Assembly: GCF_002201535.1 (NCBI RefSeq)
Contig: NZ_NIWW01000003.1
Span: 310,001 to 374,000, forward strand
Reading direction: 5' to 3'
DNA length: 64,000 nucleotides
From: Lacimicrobium sp. SS2-24
GTDB taxonomy: Bacteria; Pseudomonadota; Gammaproteobacteria; Enterobacterales; Alteromonadaceae
Below, piece by piece: positions 28,788-54,136 of the stretch. The position numbers and the translations under genes were made by a program. The number at the start of each line of letters is the position of its first letter. Within the stretch, counting starts at the first letter, position 1. The notes beneath the pieces are model-generated. The model did no database searches. It worked only from the letters and a program-made list of their open reading frames with translations, and was not told the origin of the DNA.

Positions 28788-29150
<363 letters not shown>

Positions 29151-47381: not shown

Positions 47382-47591
47382 CAGCAGTAAAAAATAAACG
47401 CGAGGAGAAATTTTGCGCATAAAGAGGTCAGGTTGCAGACGTCAGCTTTCAGTAGCCACCGCAAAGCCTTACTTTAATTACAAAAGGCACAATCCCACTG
47501 AGGACTGACAACTGAAAACTTGTCTGGCTCTGCAACGCTACCAAGAATAATGCCTTTCCTGTAGTGCGTAATAAAAAGCAAACCACGCTAT

Positions 47592-47612
47592 TGCAAACCA
47601 TTCTCATTTGCA
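47592..47612 (+). promoter_or_regulatory. Fur-box-like operator over a sigma70-type promoter
   Basis: The palindromic TGCAAACCATTCTCATTTGCA resembles a Fur box; the reverse complement contains AATGAGAAT, a good half-site, while the other half is weaker. It overlaps a promoter with -35 TTGCAA (47591-47596), 17-bp spacing and -10 TAAATT (47614-47619), the geometry expected for Fur repression. Transcription would start near 47626 on the plus strand. Confidence 0.5.
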
Positions 47613-47625
47613 TTAAATTGAACCT

Positions 47626-47727
47626 GCACTACTCCTCAAGTCTACTGGTCTTTCTTGGGAGTCATACCAATTCCTCACATGATTGGTATTTACCGGGCGG
47701 GTTCTCCATGGCCCGCCCGGTTTTTTT
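47626..47727 (+). ncRNA. candidate iron-regulated small RNA (about 100 nt)
   Basis: From the predicted start at about 47626, the sequence has a single-stranded-looking 5' part, a hairpin ATACCAAT/ATTGGTAT (47664-47689) with loop TCCTCACATG, and a strong terminator ending at 47727. It encodes no open frame of note. Size, architecture and a Fur-like promoter are those of RyhB-type sRNAs, but I see no convincing match to the RyhB core. Alternatively it is an attenuated leader of the borosin operon that begins 90 bp later. Confidence 0.45.
47692..47727 (+). terminator. strong rho-independent terminator upstream of the borosin genes
   Basis: A 10-bp perfect GC-rich stem ACCGGGCGGG/CCCGCCCGGT with a 10-nt loop is followed by a run of seven T (47721-47727). 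Confidence 0.9.
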
Positions 47728-47769
47728 ACTTCACTAAACATTGTCTCATTCAGCTTGGTGTGCTTTGTG

Positions 47770-47817: not shown

Positions 47818-48660
47818 ATGGCAAGGGATTATAACGTGAAGGATACGCACAACGGACGCTTAACCATAGCCGGGTGTGGACTGCACCCAGGCCACATGAC
47901 ACTGGAAACCCAAAGCCTTATTGAAGCGGCGGAAACGGTGTTATTGGTTGCCCCCAACCCCCTGTCGATTCAGCATATCCGTCAGCTCAACGCTAATACA
48001 GAACACCTCGGCAGGTTTTACAATATGGGCTATTCACGCCCAGAGATATACCGTCAAATGGCCCTTCGCATAATCGAACTGGTGCAGCAGGGCCAGTCAG
48101 TGTGTGTGGTGTTTTACGGCCACCCTGGCGTATTTGTCTCGTCTACCCGCATGGCGGGCCGGGTATTGTCAGAACGCGGTTACCCCGTCACCATGTTACC
48201 AGGCATCTCCGCAGACGCCTGCTTATACGCCGATTTAGGCCTTGATCCGGCCGATACCGGCTGTCAGAGCTATGAATCCACCCGCTTTTTACTCACCCGT
48301 AGAGATGTCGATAACAGTGCGGCGCTGATTTTATGGCAACTGGGGCTGACCGGTGAACACAGCATGGATAAGTTCGAACCCGGGAAAAAGGGCCTGGCAG
48401 CCTTAAGCCGACTATTGCAACAGAGCTATCCGCCAGAGCATCAGGTGTGTTTATACGAGGCTCCGACCCTGCCGGGCTTTGAGCCCCGCAAGGACTGGAT
48501 GGCACTGACCGATCTGGCACCGGCGGATGTGAATACTATTACCACGCTTTATGTGCCAGCATGTCAGGAACCGTCTTTTGCGGCTGAGCGCTTAGCATGG
48601 CTCGGTCTGAATGAGGATGACATTCGCCATTGGGATGAATACGAAGAAATTGAGGTGTAA
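47818..48660 (+). CDS. borosin alpha-N-methyltransferase (SonM-type, split pathway)
   Basis: This 280-residue SAM-dependent methylase of the tetrapyrrole methylase fold begins TIAGCGLHPGHMTLE and has VCVVFYGHPGVFVSSTRMA, PGISADACLYADLGLDP, QSYESTRFLL and LILWQLGLTGEHSMDKF. From memory these blocks follow Shewanella SonM, a borosin enzyme that methylates backbone amides of its precursor peptide. The FYNMGYSRPEIYRQM segment keeps the Tyr, Arg and Tyr pattern placed near the active site in this family. It is too short to be a fused fungal-type borosin, and no precursor is attached. Cobalamin or siroheme methylases are an alternative, but no such pathway genes are nearby and the gene 46 bp downstream fits a borosin precursor. 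Confidence 0.87.
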   Translation: MARDYNVKDTHNGRLTIAGCGLHPGHMTLETQSLIEAAETVLLVAPNPLSIQHIRQLNANTEHLGRFYNMGYSRPEIYRQMALRIIELVQQGQSVCVVFYGHPGVFVSSTRMAGRVLSERGYPVTMLPGISADACLYADLGLDPADTGCQSYESTRFLLTRRDVDNSAALILWQLGLTGEHSMDKFEPGKKGLAALSRLLQQSYPPEHQVCLYEAPTLPGFEPRKDWMALTDLAPADVNTITTLYVPACQEPSFAAERLAWLGLNEDDIRHWDEYEEIEV

Positions 48661-48706
48661 GGCGTTGCAATCAGGCAACATACTATGGCAAGAAGAGGAA
48701 GAAGAT

Positions 48707-48982
48707 ATGGATAATTTAAGCCGTTTCTATCTGGAGTTGGCGACCAACACCAATAAGCTACAGACCTTTAACCTGAGCGAGGATAACCGCCGCGTTATGT
48801 TAGAACAAGCAGGCGTTAAGGATATTGATAACATCCTTAACATGGATAAAGAAAACCTGCGCCAGACTCTGGCCAAGGCGCTGATTGAGCAAACCGGCGA
48901 CTGGCAGGGGCTGGATAACACCGCTGGTAACGATGACAATAAAAATAATATCGGTCGTATTGGCCGCACAGTAACCCACTGA
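48707..48982 (+). CDS. borosin precursor peptide (SonA-type)
   Basis: This 91-residue protein is the predicted substrate of the preceding methyltransferase. Residues 1-57 form an all-helical Nif11- or borosin-binding-domain-like leader (LSRFYLELATNTNKLQTF, then VMLEQAGVKDIDNILNMD), comparable to SonA's LSDFFTQLGQDAQ and VMRAHGLTDEQINAVM. A Gly/Asn/Asp-rich stretch (about 63-80) leads to a C-terminal candidate core NNIGRIGRTVTH with a doubled Ile-Gly-Arg. Likely methylation sites by analogy are Ile82, Ile85 and Val89 (inference). The ATG at 48707 has GAGGAA upstream; the frame is open earlier but without homology. The stop lies 7 bp before the kinase gene. Confidence 0.82.
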   Translation: MDNLSRFYLELATNTNKLQTFNLSEDNRRVMLEQAGVKDIDNILNMDKENLRQTLAKALIEQTGDWQGLDNTAGNDDNKNNIGRIGRTVTH

Positions 48983-48989
48983 GGTCTGC

Positions 48990-51900
48990 GTGTGCCGGTT
49001 ATTGTGCTTTCTGGCTGTGCTTGCATCGGTATCATTCCCCGATGCAGGCGCTCAGAGTCCGGACAATAATCCGGCACCGGGCTCGGCTTTTCAGAAATCT
49101 GTCAGCGGTAACTGGTTTGCCGAACGTACCGAGCAACTGGCCCGTAATCAGCCCGAAGATGCCCTTACCCTGGCACAGCAGGCGCTGGCGTTTTTTGCCG
49201 ATAACCCCGATCCCAGTGCCCATGGTCGGGTACTAAATGCCTCGGCCTATGCGCTGTACTTTATGGGCCGATATGGCGAGTCCATGCAGCACGCCCGTGA
49301 CGCCGAACTCCTGGCCGAACAGCATAAATTACCTGCCGTCCGTGCCCGTGGACTAATGTTACAGGCCAATGTATTACAAAGTGTCGGCGAATACCCCCGC
49401 GCTATAACCAAATACCAGCAGGCCGCCAGTTATTATCGTGAAGCCGGCAATCAGCTGTATGAAGGCTATTGTTATAATAATATGGCCAATACCTACAAGG
49501 CCGCCGGACAGTACCAGACCGCCCTGGAGTATTATCAGCAATATCGGCGTTTAGCGGCAGGTGAAGATAATTTGGCCAGTGCAGAAAAAGGTACTGGTGA
49601 TGTATTTCTGCAATTAGGAAATATCGATGAGGCCACACGCTATTTTAAAAATGCACTGGCTCTCTATACTGAAGCTCAGGATAATCTGGGAATAGCTATT
49701 GCCAGCAATGCCCTAGGGGAAGCCAAGCTTAGCAAAGAGGATATTCCCGGAGCTATCGCTTTACTTGATAAAGCTATCGAATTGTCCGTTCAGAATAACC
49801 TTCAATACACTTTATTTAGTTCTCTTGTTCTGAAGTCTTCCGCCTTAAGCAGACAAGGTGAGATGGAGCAGGCTCTGGCATTGCTTCTACAGGCCCGTCA
49901 AACCGCTCAGGATATGGGAAGTAAAGCAAACCTAAGCAAAGTCGAATACCACCTTGCCGATATTTACCAACAACAAGGTAAGTTGCCGCTCGCTTTTGCA
50001 ACCCTGAAGTCGGCCCAGCAAACAGAGCAGCAGTATCTGAGTGAGCGCAGCGCCAGGCAGTTGAGTGTCATGCAGGCGCTGTTTGACAGTGAAACCAAAG
50101 CCGCACAAATAGAACAGCTTGAGCAGCAAAATCAGTTGTTACAACTGGAGCAGGAAGTCAGTCATCAGAATACCCAGAATGCGCGGTTAATGGCGGCCAT
50201 GCTGTTTGGCGCACTGGGATTGATCACACTGTGGGCCGTACATATTTTTCGAGAACGTCAACGCTTAAGTCGTCTGACAGAAGAACTGAAAAAAGCACGT
50301 CAGCAAGCAGAGTCAGCGGCTCAAACCAAGGCGGCATTTCTGGCTAACATGAGCCATGAGATTCGTACCCCCATCAACGCAGTGATGGGCCTGAGTCGAC
50401 TGGCTCTGGATACCGGCTCAGCGCAAGAAAAGAAAGGCTACCTCAACAAGATCCTCGATTCCGGTAACACGCTGTTACGACTGGTGGAGGACATTCTCGA
50501 TTTTTCCCGCATCGAAGCGGGAAAATTACATATCGACCAGATAGAGATGAAGCCTAGCCAGGTGATCAAGTCCGCGCTGAATATGAACACGGTGCAGGCC
50601 CATGAGAAAAGTTTGTCACTGATCACCCATGTTGCACCGGACACGCCGGTTCAGGTGATCGGCGATCCGTGGCGTATACAGCAGGTGCTGGTGAACCTTA
50701 TCAGTAATGCAGTAAAGTTTACCGCCGAAGGACACATCACGGTATCTGTACGGCAGCGAAATGATCCTCATCATGGGGGCCCTACTCTGCTATTCAGTGT
50801 GGCCGACACCGGTATTGGCATGACCGACGAACAGCAGAAAAACCTGTTCCAGTCTTTTTCTCAGGGTGATGACTCTATCACCAGAAAATATGGCGGCACC
50901 GGATTGGGCCTGGCGATCAGTAAACAATTGTGCAAGCTGATGGGAGGTGAGATCTGGGTAGACAGTGAACCCGGAAAAGGATCCACTTTTAGCTTTACGC
51001 TACCATTGAAACTGCCTCTGAAACACTCGGAGGCTGGTGCTGAAGTCATGCCCCGTGTCGCCAACGCCATGCCAGCACCGCCGGATTTCAGCGGATACAC
51101 TCTGCTTTTAGTTGACGATAACAGTATTAACTGTGAAGTGGCGAAAGGCATGTTGAATAAAACGGGTGTGCGGGTGGATATCGCTTCAAGCGGCGAGCAA
51201 GCACTGACGCTATTGCAGCGTCAACCTTATGATCTGATTCTGATGGATATCCAGATGCCGGGGCTGGACGGCCTCAGCACAACCCGAAAAATTCGCGAAG
51301 ACCTGCACATCCAGACGCCTATCATTGCCATGACCGCTCATGCTTTGGCATCCGATCGATTGAAATCCGAGCAGGCTGGAATGGATGCTCATCTGGCCAA
51401 GCCCATAGAGCCCGCGCAGTTGTACCTGATGCTGGAGCACTATTTACCCACAACACCGGTAAAGACACCTGTCTCTGATGCACCGTCCCCTTCCGCAATC
51501 TCCTCATTAATATCACCGGATGCACCACGGCAGCGACCTGAACAGAGCATGGAAGCCATCAGCGGCCTTGCAGAACTGGATACGACAGGGGCTTTACAGC
51601 GCCTGGCGGGAAATACTGAGTTGTATATGAAGCTTATTTATAGCTTCTGTCGAGACCAACAACATACAGCCAGCCGCATAAGGCGTATGCTGGCAGCTGA
51701 CGATCAACAGGGCGTGTATCGTGCTGTTCATTCTCTCAAATCCAGTTTCGCTTATATTGGTGCCTTCAGGTTGTCACAGGCCTGTGAGGCGCTGGAAAGC
51801 AAACTGTCTGGCGAGCATCCCTGTGGCAATGATCTCAATGACATCTGTCAGCACCTTGAGGCCTTACTCGACACATTAAAGCCCCTGTGTACGGACAAGC

Positions 51901-52187
51901 ATGACACGGTCAGAACACTGAGTCAGACTGAGCTCACTGACGAGCTCAGCGCCCTGATTCCGATGCTGCAACGATCCGATCTCAGTGCCCTGGAACACCT
52001 GAATAATCTGCAACCTCAGCTTGCAGATCCTCTGCTTTGTGACAAGTTTGAGCAACTTGTACAATTCACCCAGGAAGTGGAGTTCGAACAGGCAACGAAA
52101 TTGGCCAGGGATATTCTGACTCAACTGACGGAACGATCAGACAATCATGAACGCCGTGACGAAGAGCAGGGAAAGAGCACGTCATGA
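48990..52187 (+). CDS. TPR-containing hybrid sensor histidine kinase (HK-REC-Hpt)
   Basis: This 1065-residue protein has a signal sequence, a periplasmic TPR array of about 6-7 repeats (residues about 40-350), a coiled coil, one transmembrane segment (AMLFGALGLITLWAVHIF, about 405-423), HisKA with the phospho-histidine in FLANMSHEIRTPIN, an HATPase with DTGIGM and GGTGLGLAISK, a REC domain with the aspartate in LILMDIQMPGLDG, and a C-terminal Hpt domain (VHSLKSSFAYIG). All phosphorelay residues are present. It starts with GTG, preceded by GAGG, 7 bp after the precursor stop, so it is probably co-transcribed with the borosin genes. The ligand is unknown; TPRs suggest a protein or peptide. Confidence 0.93.
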   Translation: MCRLLCFLAVLASVSFPDAGAQSPDNNPAPGSAFQKSVSGNWFAERTEQLARNQPEDALTLAQQALAFFADNPDPSAHGRVLNASAYALYFMGRYGESMQHARDAELLAEQHKLPAVRARGLMLQANVLQSVGEYPRAITKYQQAASYYREAGNQLYEGYCYNNMANTYKAAGQYQTALEYYQQYRRLAAGEDNLASAEKGTGDVFLQLGNIDEATRYFKNALALYTEAQDNLGIAIASNALGEAKLSKEDIPGAIALLDKAIELSVQNNLQYTLFSSLVLKSSALSRQGEMEQALALLLQARQTAQDMGSKANLSKVEYHLADIYQQQGKLPLAFATLKSAQQTEQQYLSERSARQLSVMQALFDSETKAAQIEQLEQQNQLLQLEQEVSHQNTQNARLMAAMLFGALGLITLWAVHIFRERQRLSRLTEELKKARQQAESAAQTKAAFLANMSHEIRTPINAVMGLSRLALDTGSAQEKKGYLNKILDSGNTLLRLVEDILDFSRIEAGKLHIDQIEMKPSQVIKSALNMNTVQAHEKSLSLITHVAPDTPVQVIGDPWRIQQVLVNLISNAVKFTAEGHITVSVRQRNDPHHGGPTLLFSVADTGIGMTDEQQKNLFQSFSQGDDSITRKYGGTGLGLAISKQLCKLMGGEIWVDSEPGKGSTFSFTLPLKLPLKHSEAGAEVMPRVANAMPAPPDFSGYTLLLVDDNSINCEVAKGMLNKTGVRVDIASSGEQALTLLQRQPYDLILMDIQMPGLDGLSTTRKIREDLHIQTPIIAMTAHALASDRLKSEQAGMDAHLAKPIEPAQLYLMLEHYLPTTPVKTPVSDAPSPSAISSLISPDAPRQRPEQSMEAISGLAELDTTGALQRLAGNTELYMKLIYSFCRDQQHTASRIRRMLAADDQQGVYRAVHSLKSSFAYIGAFRLSQACEALESKLSGEHPCGNDLNDICQHLEALLDTLKPLCTDKHDTVRTLSQTELTDELSALIPMLQRSDLSALEHLNNLQPQLADPLLCDKFEQLVQFTQEVEFEQATKLARDILTQLTERSDNHERRDEEQGKSTS

Positions 52188-53140
52188 CACCACGCCAACA
52201 GATATTAATCATTGACGATGAGACCGACAACCTGATGATTTTAAGTGATATTCTTAGAAATCAGGCCGATATTCTGCTGGCCAAAAACGCCCAGCAGGGG
52301 ATCCGCAAAGCCACCGAACTAAAGCCGGATCTAATCCTCTTAGATGTGGTCATGCCTGGCATGGATGGCTTTGAGGTCATGACAATGTTGCAGCGCGATC
52401 CCGCCACCAGTGATATTCCGGTTATTTTCATTACCGCTTTGGGCGACATTCAGCATGAGGAGCGAGGCTTTCAGCTTGGCGCCTGTGATTACATTCAAAA
52501 GCCATTTCACACTACCATCGTTCTTGCACGCATCAGACTCCACCTGGAACTGGTGCGTCAACGCAGAATGCTGGAACAACTGGCAAATATTGACCCTCTG
52601 ACCGGTATCGCTAACCGTCGTCGCTACGAAGATGTACTGAAAAAAGCGTGGCGGGTAGCGCTGCGCAGACAAAACCCTCTGTCTCTGGTTCTGGTGGACA
52701 TTGATAACTTCAAACACTACAACGACCACTTCGGGCATGCCGCCGGGGACAGAGTCTTGCAAAAAGTAGCGGGAACACTGAATGAACGTTTGCAACGACC
52801 CGGCGATTTGGTCGCGCGCTTCGGTGGCGAAGAATTTATCATTTTGTTGCCCGATAACCCAAAGCAAGGTGCGATAGACGTCATGGAGCACTGTCGTCAG
52901 GCGATTGAAAAGATGCCACTGGATGAGTTTAATCATGCAGATATTGGCAACATCACCGTCAGCATAGGTGGCTATACCTGTCACCCTGAAGTAGATATCA
53001 ACCCGCAGGACGCCATCAAAATGGCAGACGACATGCTGTATATGGCGAAACACAAAGGCAAAAACCGTATCCTGTGGTTTTGCGACAATCAGGGGATCAG
53101 CGAGTTGCCACTAAATACCCCGTCCACCTCATCGTTCTGA
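52184..53140 (+). CDS. response regulator diguanylate cyclase (REC-GGDEF)
   Basis: This 318-residue protein has an N-terminal receiver domain (IIDDETDN; phospho-aspartate in LILLDVVMPGMDG; KPF near 105) and a C-terminal GGDEF domain with active site RFGGEEF and the inhibitory I-site RPGD five residues before it. It should make c-di-GMP when phosphorylated. Its ATG overlaps the kinase stop by 4 bp, so the kinase at 48990 is the likely partner. It ends the predicted operon. Confidence 0.94.
   Translation: MTPRQQILIIDDETDNLMILSDILRNQADILLAKNAQQGIRKATELKPDLILLDVVMPGMDGFEVMTMLQRDPATSDIPVIFITALGDIQHEERGFQLGACDYIQKPFHTTIVLARIRLHLELVRQRRMLEQLANIDPLTGIANRRRYEDVLKKAWRVALRRQNPLSLVLVDIDNFKHYNDHFGHAAGDRVLQKVAGTLNERLQRPGDLVARFGGEEFIILLPDNPKQGAIDVMEHCRQAIEKMPLDEFNHADIGNITVSIGGYTCHPEVDINPQDAIKMADDMLYMAKHKGKNRILWFCDNQGISELPLNTPSTSSF

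Positions 53141-53186: not shown

Positions 53187-54136
<950 letters not shown>

Follow-up and report, generated by a model that had tools for sequence, protein, structure and literature searches.

A candidate Fur-repressed, iron-sparing small RNA in Lacimicrobium and Bowmanella

What is encoded just upstream of a borosin-type gene pair in Lacimicrobium sp. SS2-24, where a palindromic promoter and a terminator stand close together? We addressed this question in a window of 64,000 nucleotides (the whole stretch of contig NZ_NIWW01000003.1 that was analyzed) and in related genomes. An earlier note on this DNA had proposed that a Fur-box promoter drives an unannotated RNA whose role resembles that of RyhB; the proposal gains support, at the level of sequence, from conservation and from predicted iron-enzyme targets. 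We consider it likely (probability about 0.8) that positions 47626–47727 encode a stand-alone, trans-acting small RNA that is repressed by Fur and spares iron. What was computed is a promoter with its box, an RNA fold, conservation that includes some covariation, neighbours that change, and a seed-target complementarity that co-occurs with the RNA.

Promoter, fold and terminator

The palindrome that the earlier note had drawn across TTGCAA-17-TAAATT is present in the sequence, with the -35 element at 47591–47596, the -10 element at 47614–47619 and a 17-nt spacer, and transcription is expected to start near 47625–47626 (Table 1). The promoter matches at 8/12 positions, below the 9-of-12 threshold of the scanner, and hence was not listed by it. 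Scored over 19 positions against the E. coli Fur consensus, the palindrome reached 13/19. Within the 64-kb window alone this score is ordinary: four strand-specific matches (at two places) are higher and 19 tie, including the site at 47592–47612. Across the nine homologs described below, however, a Fur-like box scoring 12–16/19 was found in 9/9, its best 19 bases ending 14–21 nt upstream of the RNA, and in none of the nine 3-kb homolog loci did consensus scoring detect a better Fur-like site. Because they are conserved in homologs, we regard the box and the promoter as above chance; the Fur-site scoring that had been suggested earlier thus favours the site through its relatives and not through its rank in the window. 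A putative Fur box over the RNA's own promoter, as in the class of Fur-repressed iron-sparing sRNAs, is present by sequence in all nine.

The 102-nt RNA folded into three hairpins at -41.8 kcal/mol (z -6.26); shuffled sequences averaged -23.2, and 0/200 shuffles folded as well. A terminator scan returned a stem of 12 pairs at 47692–47721, and the GC-rich terminator has seven T at 47721–47727, such that the stable hairpin and the terminator claimed earlier are confirmed by sequence, terminator scan and fold alike. The further claim that the region has no open frame does not hold to the letter: frames of 52–57 aa overlap it on the + strand, but no reading frame is conserved, since the spacing between the conserved loops (33, 34, 49, 56, 59 or 61 nt among homologs) varies out of frame. 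In one relative (G002) the open frame of the methyltransferase extends upstream across the RNA (373 aa), unlike in the window or in G001.

Table 1. Positions of the proposed RNA, its parts and its promoter in the window
Feature	Position	Strand	Basis
Sigma-70-like promoter TTGCAA-17-TAAATT	47591..47619	+	sequence; TTGNNA, spacer scored 16-17 nt in nine homologs
Fur-box-like palindrome TGCAAACCATTCTCATTTGCA across the promoter core	47592..47612		consensus score, homologs
Candidate small RNA, ~102 nt	47626..47727	+	fold z -6.26; homologs in 9/395 family genomes; covariation
Hairpin 1, loop 47641-47653	47631..47662	+	fold, alignment, covariation
Predicted loop-1 seed UGGUCUUU	47646..47653	+	complement of AAAGACCA in fumA leaders; part of sdhC match
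Hairpin 2, variable	47664..47689	+	fold, alignment; missing in 5/9 homologs
Hairpin 3 + U run, intrinsic terminator	47692..47727	+	sequence, terminator scan, fold, alignment
Predicted terminator-loop seed UUCUCCAUG	47702..47710	+	complement of CATGGAGAA at sodB ribosome-binding site

Relatives and changing neighbours of the RNA

Relatives were sought by a DNA search of 98 genomes and by a covariance model (R1), applied with strict filters to 395 family genomes. The DNA search matched two genomes of the same genus (87 and 85% identity) and G016 (75%), while three further matches cover the Fur-like box alone; the match to G001 and G002 ends at query base 167 (47726), that is, at the terminator end. 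R1 placed the RNA in 9/395 family genomes and 3/52 genera. The carrier genera include Lacimicrobium and Bowmanella, both of the Alteromonadaceae; one Aliiglaciecola-labelled genome is grouped with Bowmanella. Strong Fur-box-like sequences (by eye ATGCAAATGANAATNNTT) also occur beside unrelated genes in other genera, at L005, L006 and L007, which were matched through box similarity alone.

When GTDB contigs were scanned with a pattern, seven matches came up: in Lacimicrobium alkaliphilum, in Aliiglaciecola sp. CAU 1673, in four Bowmanella species, and one in Echinicola that R1 did not recover. A two-loop pattern run over the 395 family genomes found five known members and, judging by the matched text alone, no convincing new one; it misses the Lacimicrobium and G016 copies because of spacing or loop change. 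Wider occurrence in the order was considered and rejected: a second model (R2), applied to 394 order-level genomes, gave nine weak matches besides the window's own genome (E 5.6e-4 to 0.049), which by eye resemble unrelated terminators or coding DNA and have no Fur box. Among phage records, none matched.

In the alignment of the nine homologs, the 5' end GCACTAC is invariant, and both loop 1 (UACUGGUCUU, in the alignment UNUACUGGUCUU) and the terminator loop (UCUCCRUG, in the alignment NUCUCCRUG) are kept in 9/9. Hairpin 2 is confined to the three Lacimicrobium genomes and G016. With hairpins 1 and 3 as a fixed structure, 94.4% of the cells pair over the nine rows; upon sliding the pair partners, pairing falls to 24–66%, with at most two pairs changed on both sides. 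Five pairs of the fixed structure changed on both sides versus a shuffle mean of 0.6 (0/500 shuffles as high), in a test with only nine related rows, shuffles that ignore relatedness, and a structure drawn from the same sequences. The count of additional pair types is not striking, as 37/500 shuffles reach it. The covariance search in related genomes, which the earlier note had proposed, yielded nine homologs, among which the promoter and hairpins 1 and 3 are conserved.

The RNA at 47626–47727 matched no Rfam family. Among ten Rfam matches up to E 10 for the region 47560–47760, a search run without a RyhB positive control, there was no RyhB, and there was none among four matches up to E 2 for four homologous loci; neither set included PrrF or NrrF. 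Rfam includes families for RyhB, PrrF and NrrF. Matches to sX13 (47637–47727; 17.7 bits against a gathering score of 50) and, on the opposite strand of the G007 copy, to STnc310 (23.9 bits against 40) were taken as chance. The sole gathering-level Rfam match in the window is the bacterial RNase P RNA class A at 28790–29149 (-). Judged by title, none of the open-licence papers listed in literature searches on these genera and the order describes an RNA of this kind. The RNA is a new sequence family, and the role proposed for it is already familiar from other bacteria.

The Lacimicrobium RNA has rplM on one side and, on the other, a TP-methylase that resembles the borosin methyltransferase SonM (7ltc, E 2.7e-46); the 91-aa frame that follows had no significant match and is taken, by position, as the borosin precursor. 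G016 has a DUF3718 gene upstream of the RNA and a TonB-dependent receptor downstream, and in G007 the RNA is flanked by metE upstream and by an esterase downstream. A MipA-type gene follows the RNA in G135, G183, G102 and G163 (scanned in G135, by eye in the others). Upstream there is an aminotransferase in G102 and G163 (scanned in G102), whereas fumC, for the iron-free fumarase, is divergent from the RNA in G183 and also in G135, here with one 121-aa frame between. Altogether, the nine homologs sit in five gene neighbourhoods with four kinds of downstream gene. By sequence and synteny, the RNA has its own terminator and is not bound to one neighbour gene.

These neighbourhoods bear on two other explanations of the locus. 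The earlier note had left room for a leader or attenuator that acts in cis on the genes for the borosin methyltransferase and precursor and would couple the peptide to iron. The borosin genes are indeed on the RNA's strand, ~90 bp separate the terminator end from 47818, the three Lacimicrobium genomes preserve this arrangement and the adjoining methyltransferase is SonM-like. Nevertheless, 6/9 loci have another same-strand gene next (a TonB receptor, a MipA-type gene or an esterase), the terminator is strong and conserved, and the loops form only weak duplexes with the starts of the borosin genes, at -6.2 to -8.4 kcal/mol. Because the downstream gene differs between lineages, we judge a borosin leader or attenuator to be quite improbable, and the borosin link looks like one of neighbourhood only. 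The same diversity of loci bears on the possibility that the region is non-functional, a chance promoter ahead of another transcript's terminator. Promoter and Fur score are weak in the window alone, as a chance origin would have it, but conservation and covariation in nine genomes and five gene neighbourhoods leave that reading with hardly any credibility.

Predicted pairing with sodB, fumA and sdhC

From the nine carrier genomes we took the sequences upstream of sdhC, of the SOD genes and of the genes for class I fumarase. The controls were, for each gene, 54 genomes without detected RNA, mostly one per genus: G053 lacked a SOD match and G031 a fumarase match, which left 54 of 55 control genomes in either case. 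For G019, a distinct SOD (L164) was counted and G019b omitted, the site being absent from both; the second SOD of carrier G102 (L089) lacks CATGGAGAA and was left uncounted. Start codons, assigned by motif scripts, could be wrong for individual genomes.

The terminator-loop seed is complementary to a word that lies across the sodB ribosome-binding site. This word, CATGGAGAA, occurs within 30 nt of the sodB start in 9/9 carriers versus 0/54 controls, whereas shorter words are found there in controls as well (ATGGAGAA in 8/54, GGAGA in 51/54). Four 8-mers are shared among the sodB leaders of the carriers (last 60 nt), all of them within the stretch AACATGGAGAA; this conserved stretch extends two bases past the complement, hence part of the sodB conservation has another reason. 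No sodB 8-mer came up to the carriers' level in 2000 draws of nine control genomes. Genome-wide, CATGGAGAA followed by ATG occurs at 37 places in the nine genomes versus seven for the reversed pattern, and sodB is the sole such place found in all nine; G002 has no other. Of the 28 remaining places, the 21 that were read were set aside; they stand before short frames or within longer ones. Some recurrent ones (three or four genomes) lead frames of 5–56 codons, and two precede frames of ~290–300 codons where a longer frame runs through the site.

Two further observations concern SOD genes. The sodB gene of G001 (L092) reads as frame-shifted near codon 7, at a C run, possibly through a sequencing error. 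The G019 SOD gene at L164 has a strong Fur-box-like sequence immediately before its start, as one would expect for a manganese SOD used under iron shortage.

The loop-1 seed UGGUCUUU is complementary to AAAGACCA in the leaders of fumA, the class I fumarase gene. The word lies within 100 nt of the fumA start in 8/9 carriers versus 0/54 controls; the ninth carrier, G001, has a mismatch (AACGACCA instead), and widening the region to 150 nt adds one control, G049, with AAAGACCAG at -142. In a count that made no use of the seed, AAAGACCA was the only 8-mer common to at least 8/9 fumA leaders (last 120 nt), a level reached in 2000 draws of nine control genomes by two fumA 8-mers, in two draws and one draw. 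Duplex energies alone separate targets from controls poorly: those for fumA (-10.9 to -15.8) overlap with the best control (-14.2), as do those for sodB (-13.1 to -14.0, best control -13.8). A FumA tree, built from 33 of the 35 sequences loaded (two failed the motif filter), was poorly resolved, 16/30 inner branches being open. The well-supported branches require only two changes of the label, and one such branch joins carrier G007 with G018, which has neither detected RNA nor either site. A partial fumA site and a partial sodB site (L141, L185; AAGACCA, ACATGGAGA) were seen in G026, which has no homolog by R1 or pattern; perhaps they reflect a diverged RNA or a remnant.

All nine carriers have GTGAANAAACAAAGACCAGTAAA in sdhC, with CAAAGACCAGTAAA at codons 4–8, and this site offers an 11-nt match to loop 1. 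Among the matches listed, CAAAGACCAGTAAAT is common in sdhC of genera without the RNA, and g8 and g39 use other codons. Since this codon choice is widespread without the RNA, we did not count it as evidence for co-evolution. Nor is the exact loop complement AGACCAGTAG a general target mark, because this 10-mer is rarer in the nine genomes than its reversed control (51 versus 134 occurrences).

Complementarity to mRNAs for iron proteins is therefore kept, as predicted pairing, at sodB and fumA, and among the compared genomes the RNA co-occurs with both full target sites, with one exception at fumA. The 9:0 and 8:0 contrasts are not independent and may represent few events, as the nine carriers are related. 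This relatedness lends some weight to the possibility that the sRNA is Fur-regulated but has other targets, its matches to fumA and sodB then being due to shared ancestry or to a conserved ribosome-binding site, as do the unspecific sdhC match and the presence of GGAGA and ATGGAGAA at sodB of controls. On the other hand, two distinct loops fit two distinct leaders, no second 8-mer is as widely shared among the fumA leaders, and G018, although grouped with G007 in the FumA tree, lacks the detected RNA and both sites. We consider other targets rather unlikely, and prefer an RNA that acts on sodB and fumA.

A proposed mechanism and its known counterparts

We propose that, when iron is sufficient, Fe-Fur bound to the palindrome over the -35 and -10 elements would block transcription, and that, when iron is short, the RNA would be made and would end at its own terminator. 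Loop 1 (UACUGGUCUUU) would pair with the fumA leader and perhaps also with sdhC codons 4–7, whereas the terminator loop may pair with the Shine-Dalgarno region of sodB and so block ribosome binding. Synthesis of the Fe-S fumarase and of Fe-SOD would then fall, sparing iron. Hfq may assist; the RNA carries a 3' U run.

Iron-sparing, Fur-controlled sRNAs include FsrA alongside RyhB, PrrF, NrrF, BrrF and IsrR. RyhB, known from Escherichia coli, Vibrio and Shewanella, is ~90 nt long, has its own terminator and targets sodB and iron enzymes of the TCA cycle. It is described with a Fur site directly in front (PMC7377471). The RNA studied here is like RyhB in its Fur-like site, similar size, own terminator and predicted sodB and iron-enzyme targets, but its loops differ, and RyhB was absent from its Rfam matches up to E 10. 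RyhB is reported for Shewanella, where AcnA and SdhA are given as outside its control (PMC2964681, for S. oneidensis; PMC8891985). The best parallel is BrrF of Burkholderia cenocepacia, for which sodB, fumA and sdhC are predicted targets and which is presented as an analogue that shares no sequence similarity with other Fur-regulated sRNAs; as described there, BrrF lies downstream of hemP and has neither a Fur box directly in front nor its own terminator hairpin (PMC7377471), whereas the present RNA has a Fur-like box in front and its own terminator hairpin. PrrF of Pseudomonas and NrrF of Neisseria are Fur-controlled and iron-sparing (PMC7377471), a role like that proposed here, but their families were unmatched in our Rfam searches. 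IsrR of Staphylococcus aureus is described as an iron-controlled sRNA whose C-rich regions can pair with ribosome-binding sites (PMC11257911); here, by contrast, the terminator loop is the predicted seed for the ribosome-binding site, and another loop, of different sequence, fits a second target. The transcriptome of Alteromonas Te101 lists 127 chromosomal sRNAs, in a report whose main text is without the words RyhB and iron (PMC5864184).

The best reading is that the RNA is an analogue of RyhB and BrrF by function, not by sequence. Iron-sparing sRNAs are widespread in bacteria without a common sequence, and a family in the Alteromonadaceae would now be added to them. The proposed loop-to-target code is simple, and the co-occurrence of RNA and target sites offers a natural test of how an sRNA and its targets evolve. 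A fuller reading, which we put forward tentatively and at somewhat less than even odds, is that this is a lineage-specific RNA with two loop seeds, one per target class: the terminator loop would be the anti-Shine-Dalgarno seed that serves sodB, and loop 1 the seed that serves fumA and possibly sdhC. It adds that the Fur-box region of some Bowmanella may also drive the divergent fumC, and that read-through into the borosin genes is possible in Lacimicrobium. If the Fur-box region does drive fumC, one switch would turn the Fe-fumarase off and its iron-free replacement on.

Farther along the window, the + strand at 47818–53140 carries the borosin-type pair and then a hybrid kinase with TPR, histidine-kinase, receiver and Hpt parts; the gene after it within this span is, by eye, a response regulator with a GGDEF domain. 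At 53187–54071 (-) there is an SBP_bac_3 solute-binding protein with a long N-terminal Ala-Gln repeat, encoded by a simple DNA repeat, that may vary in length between strains.
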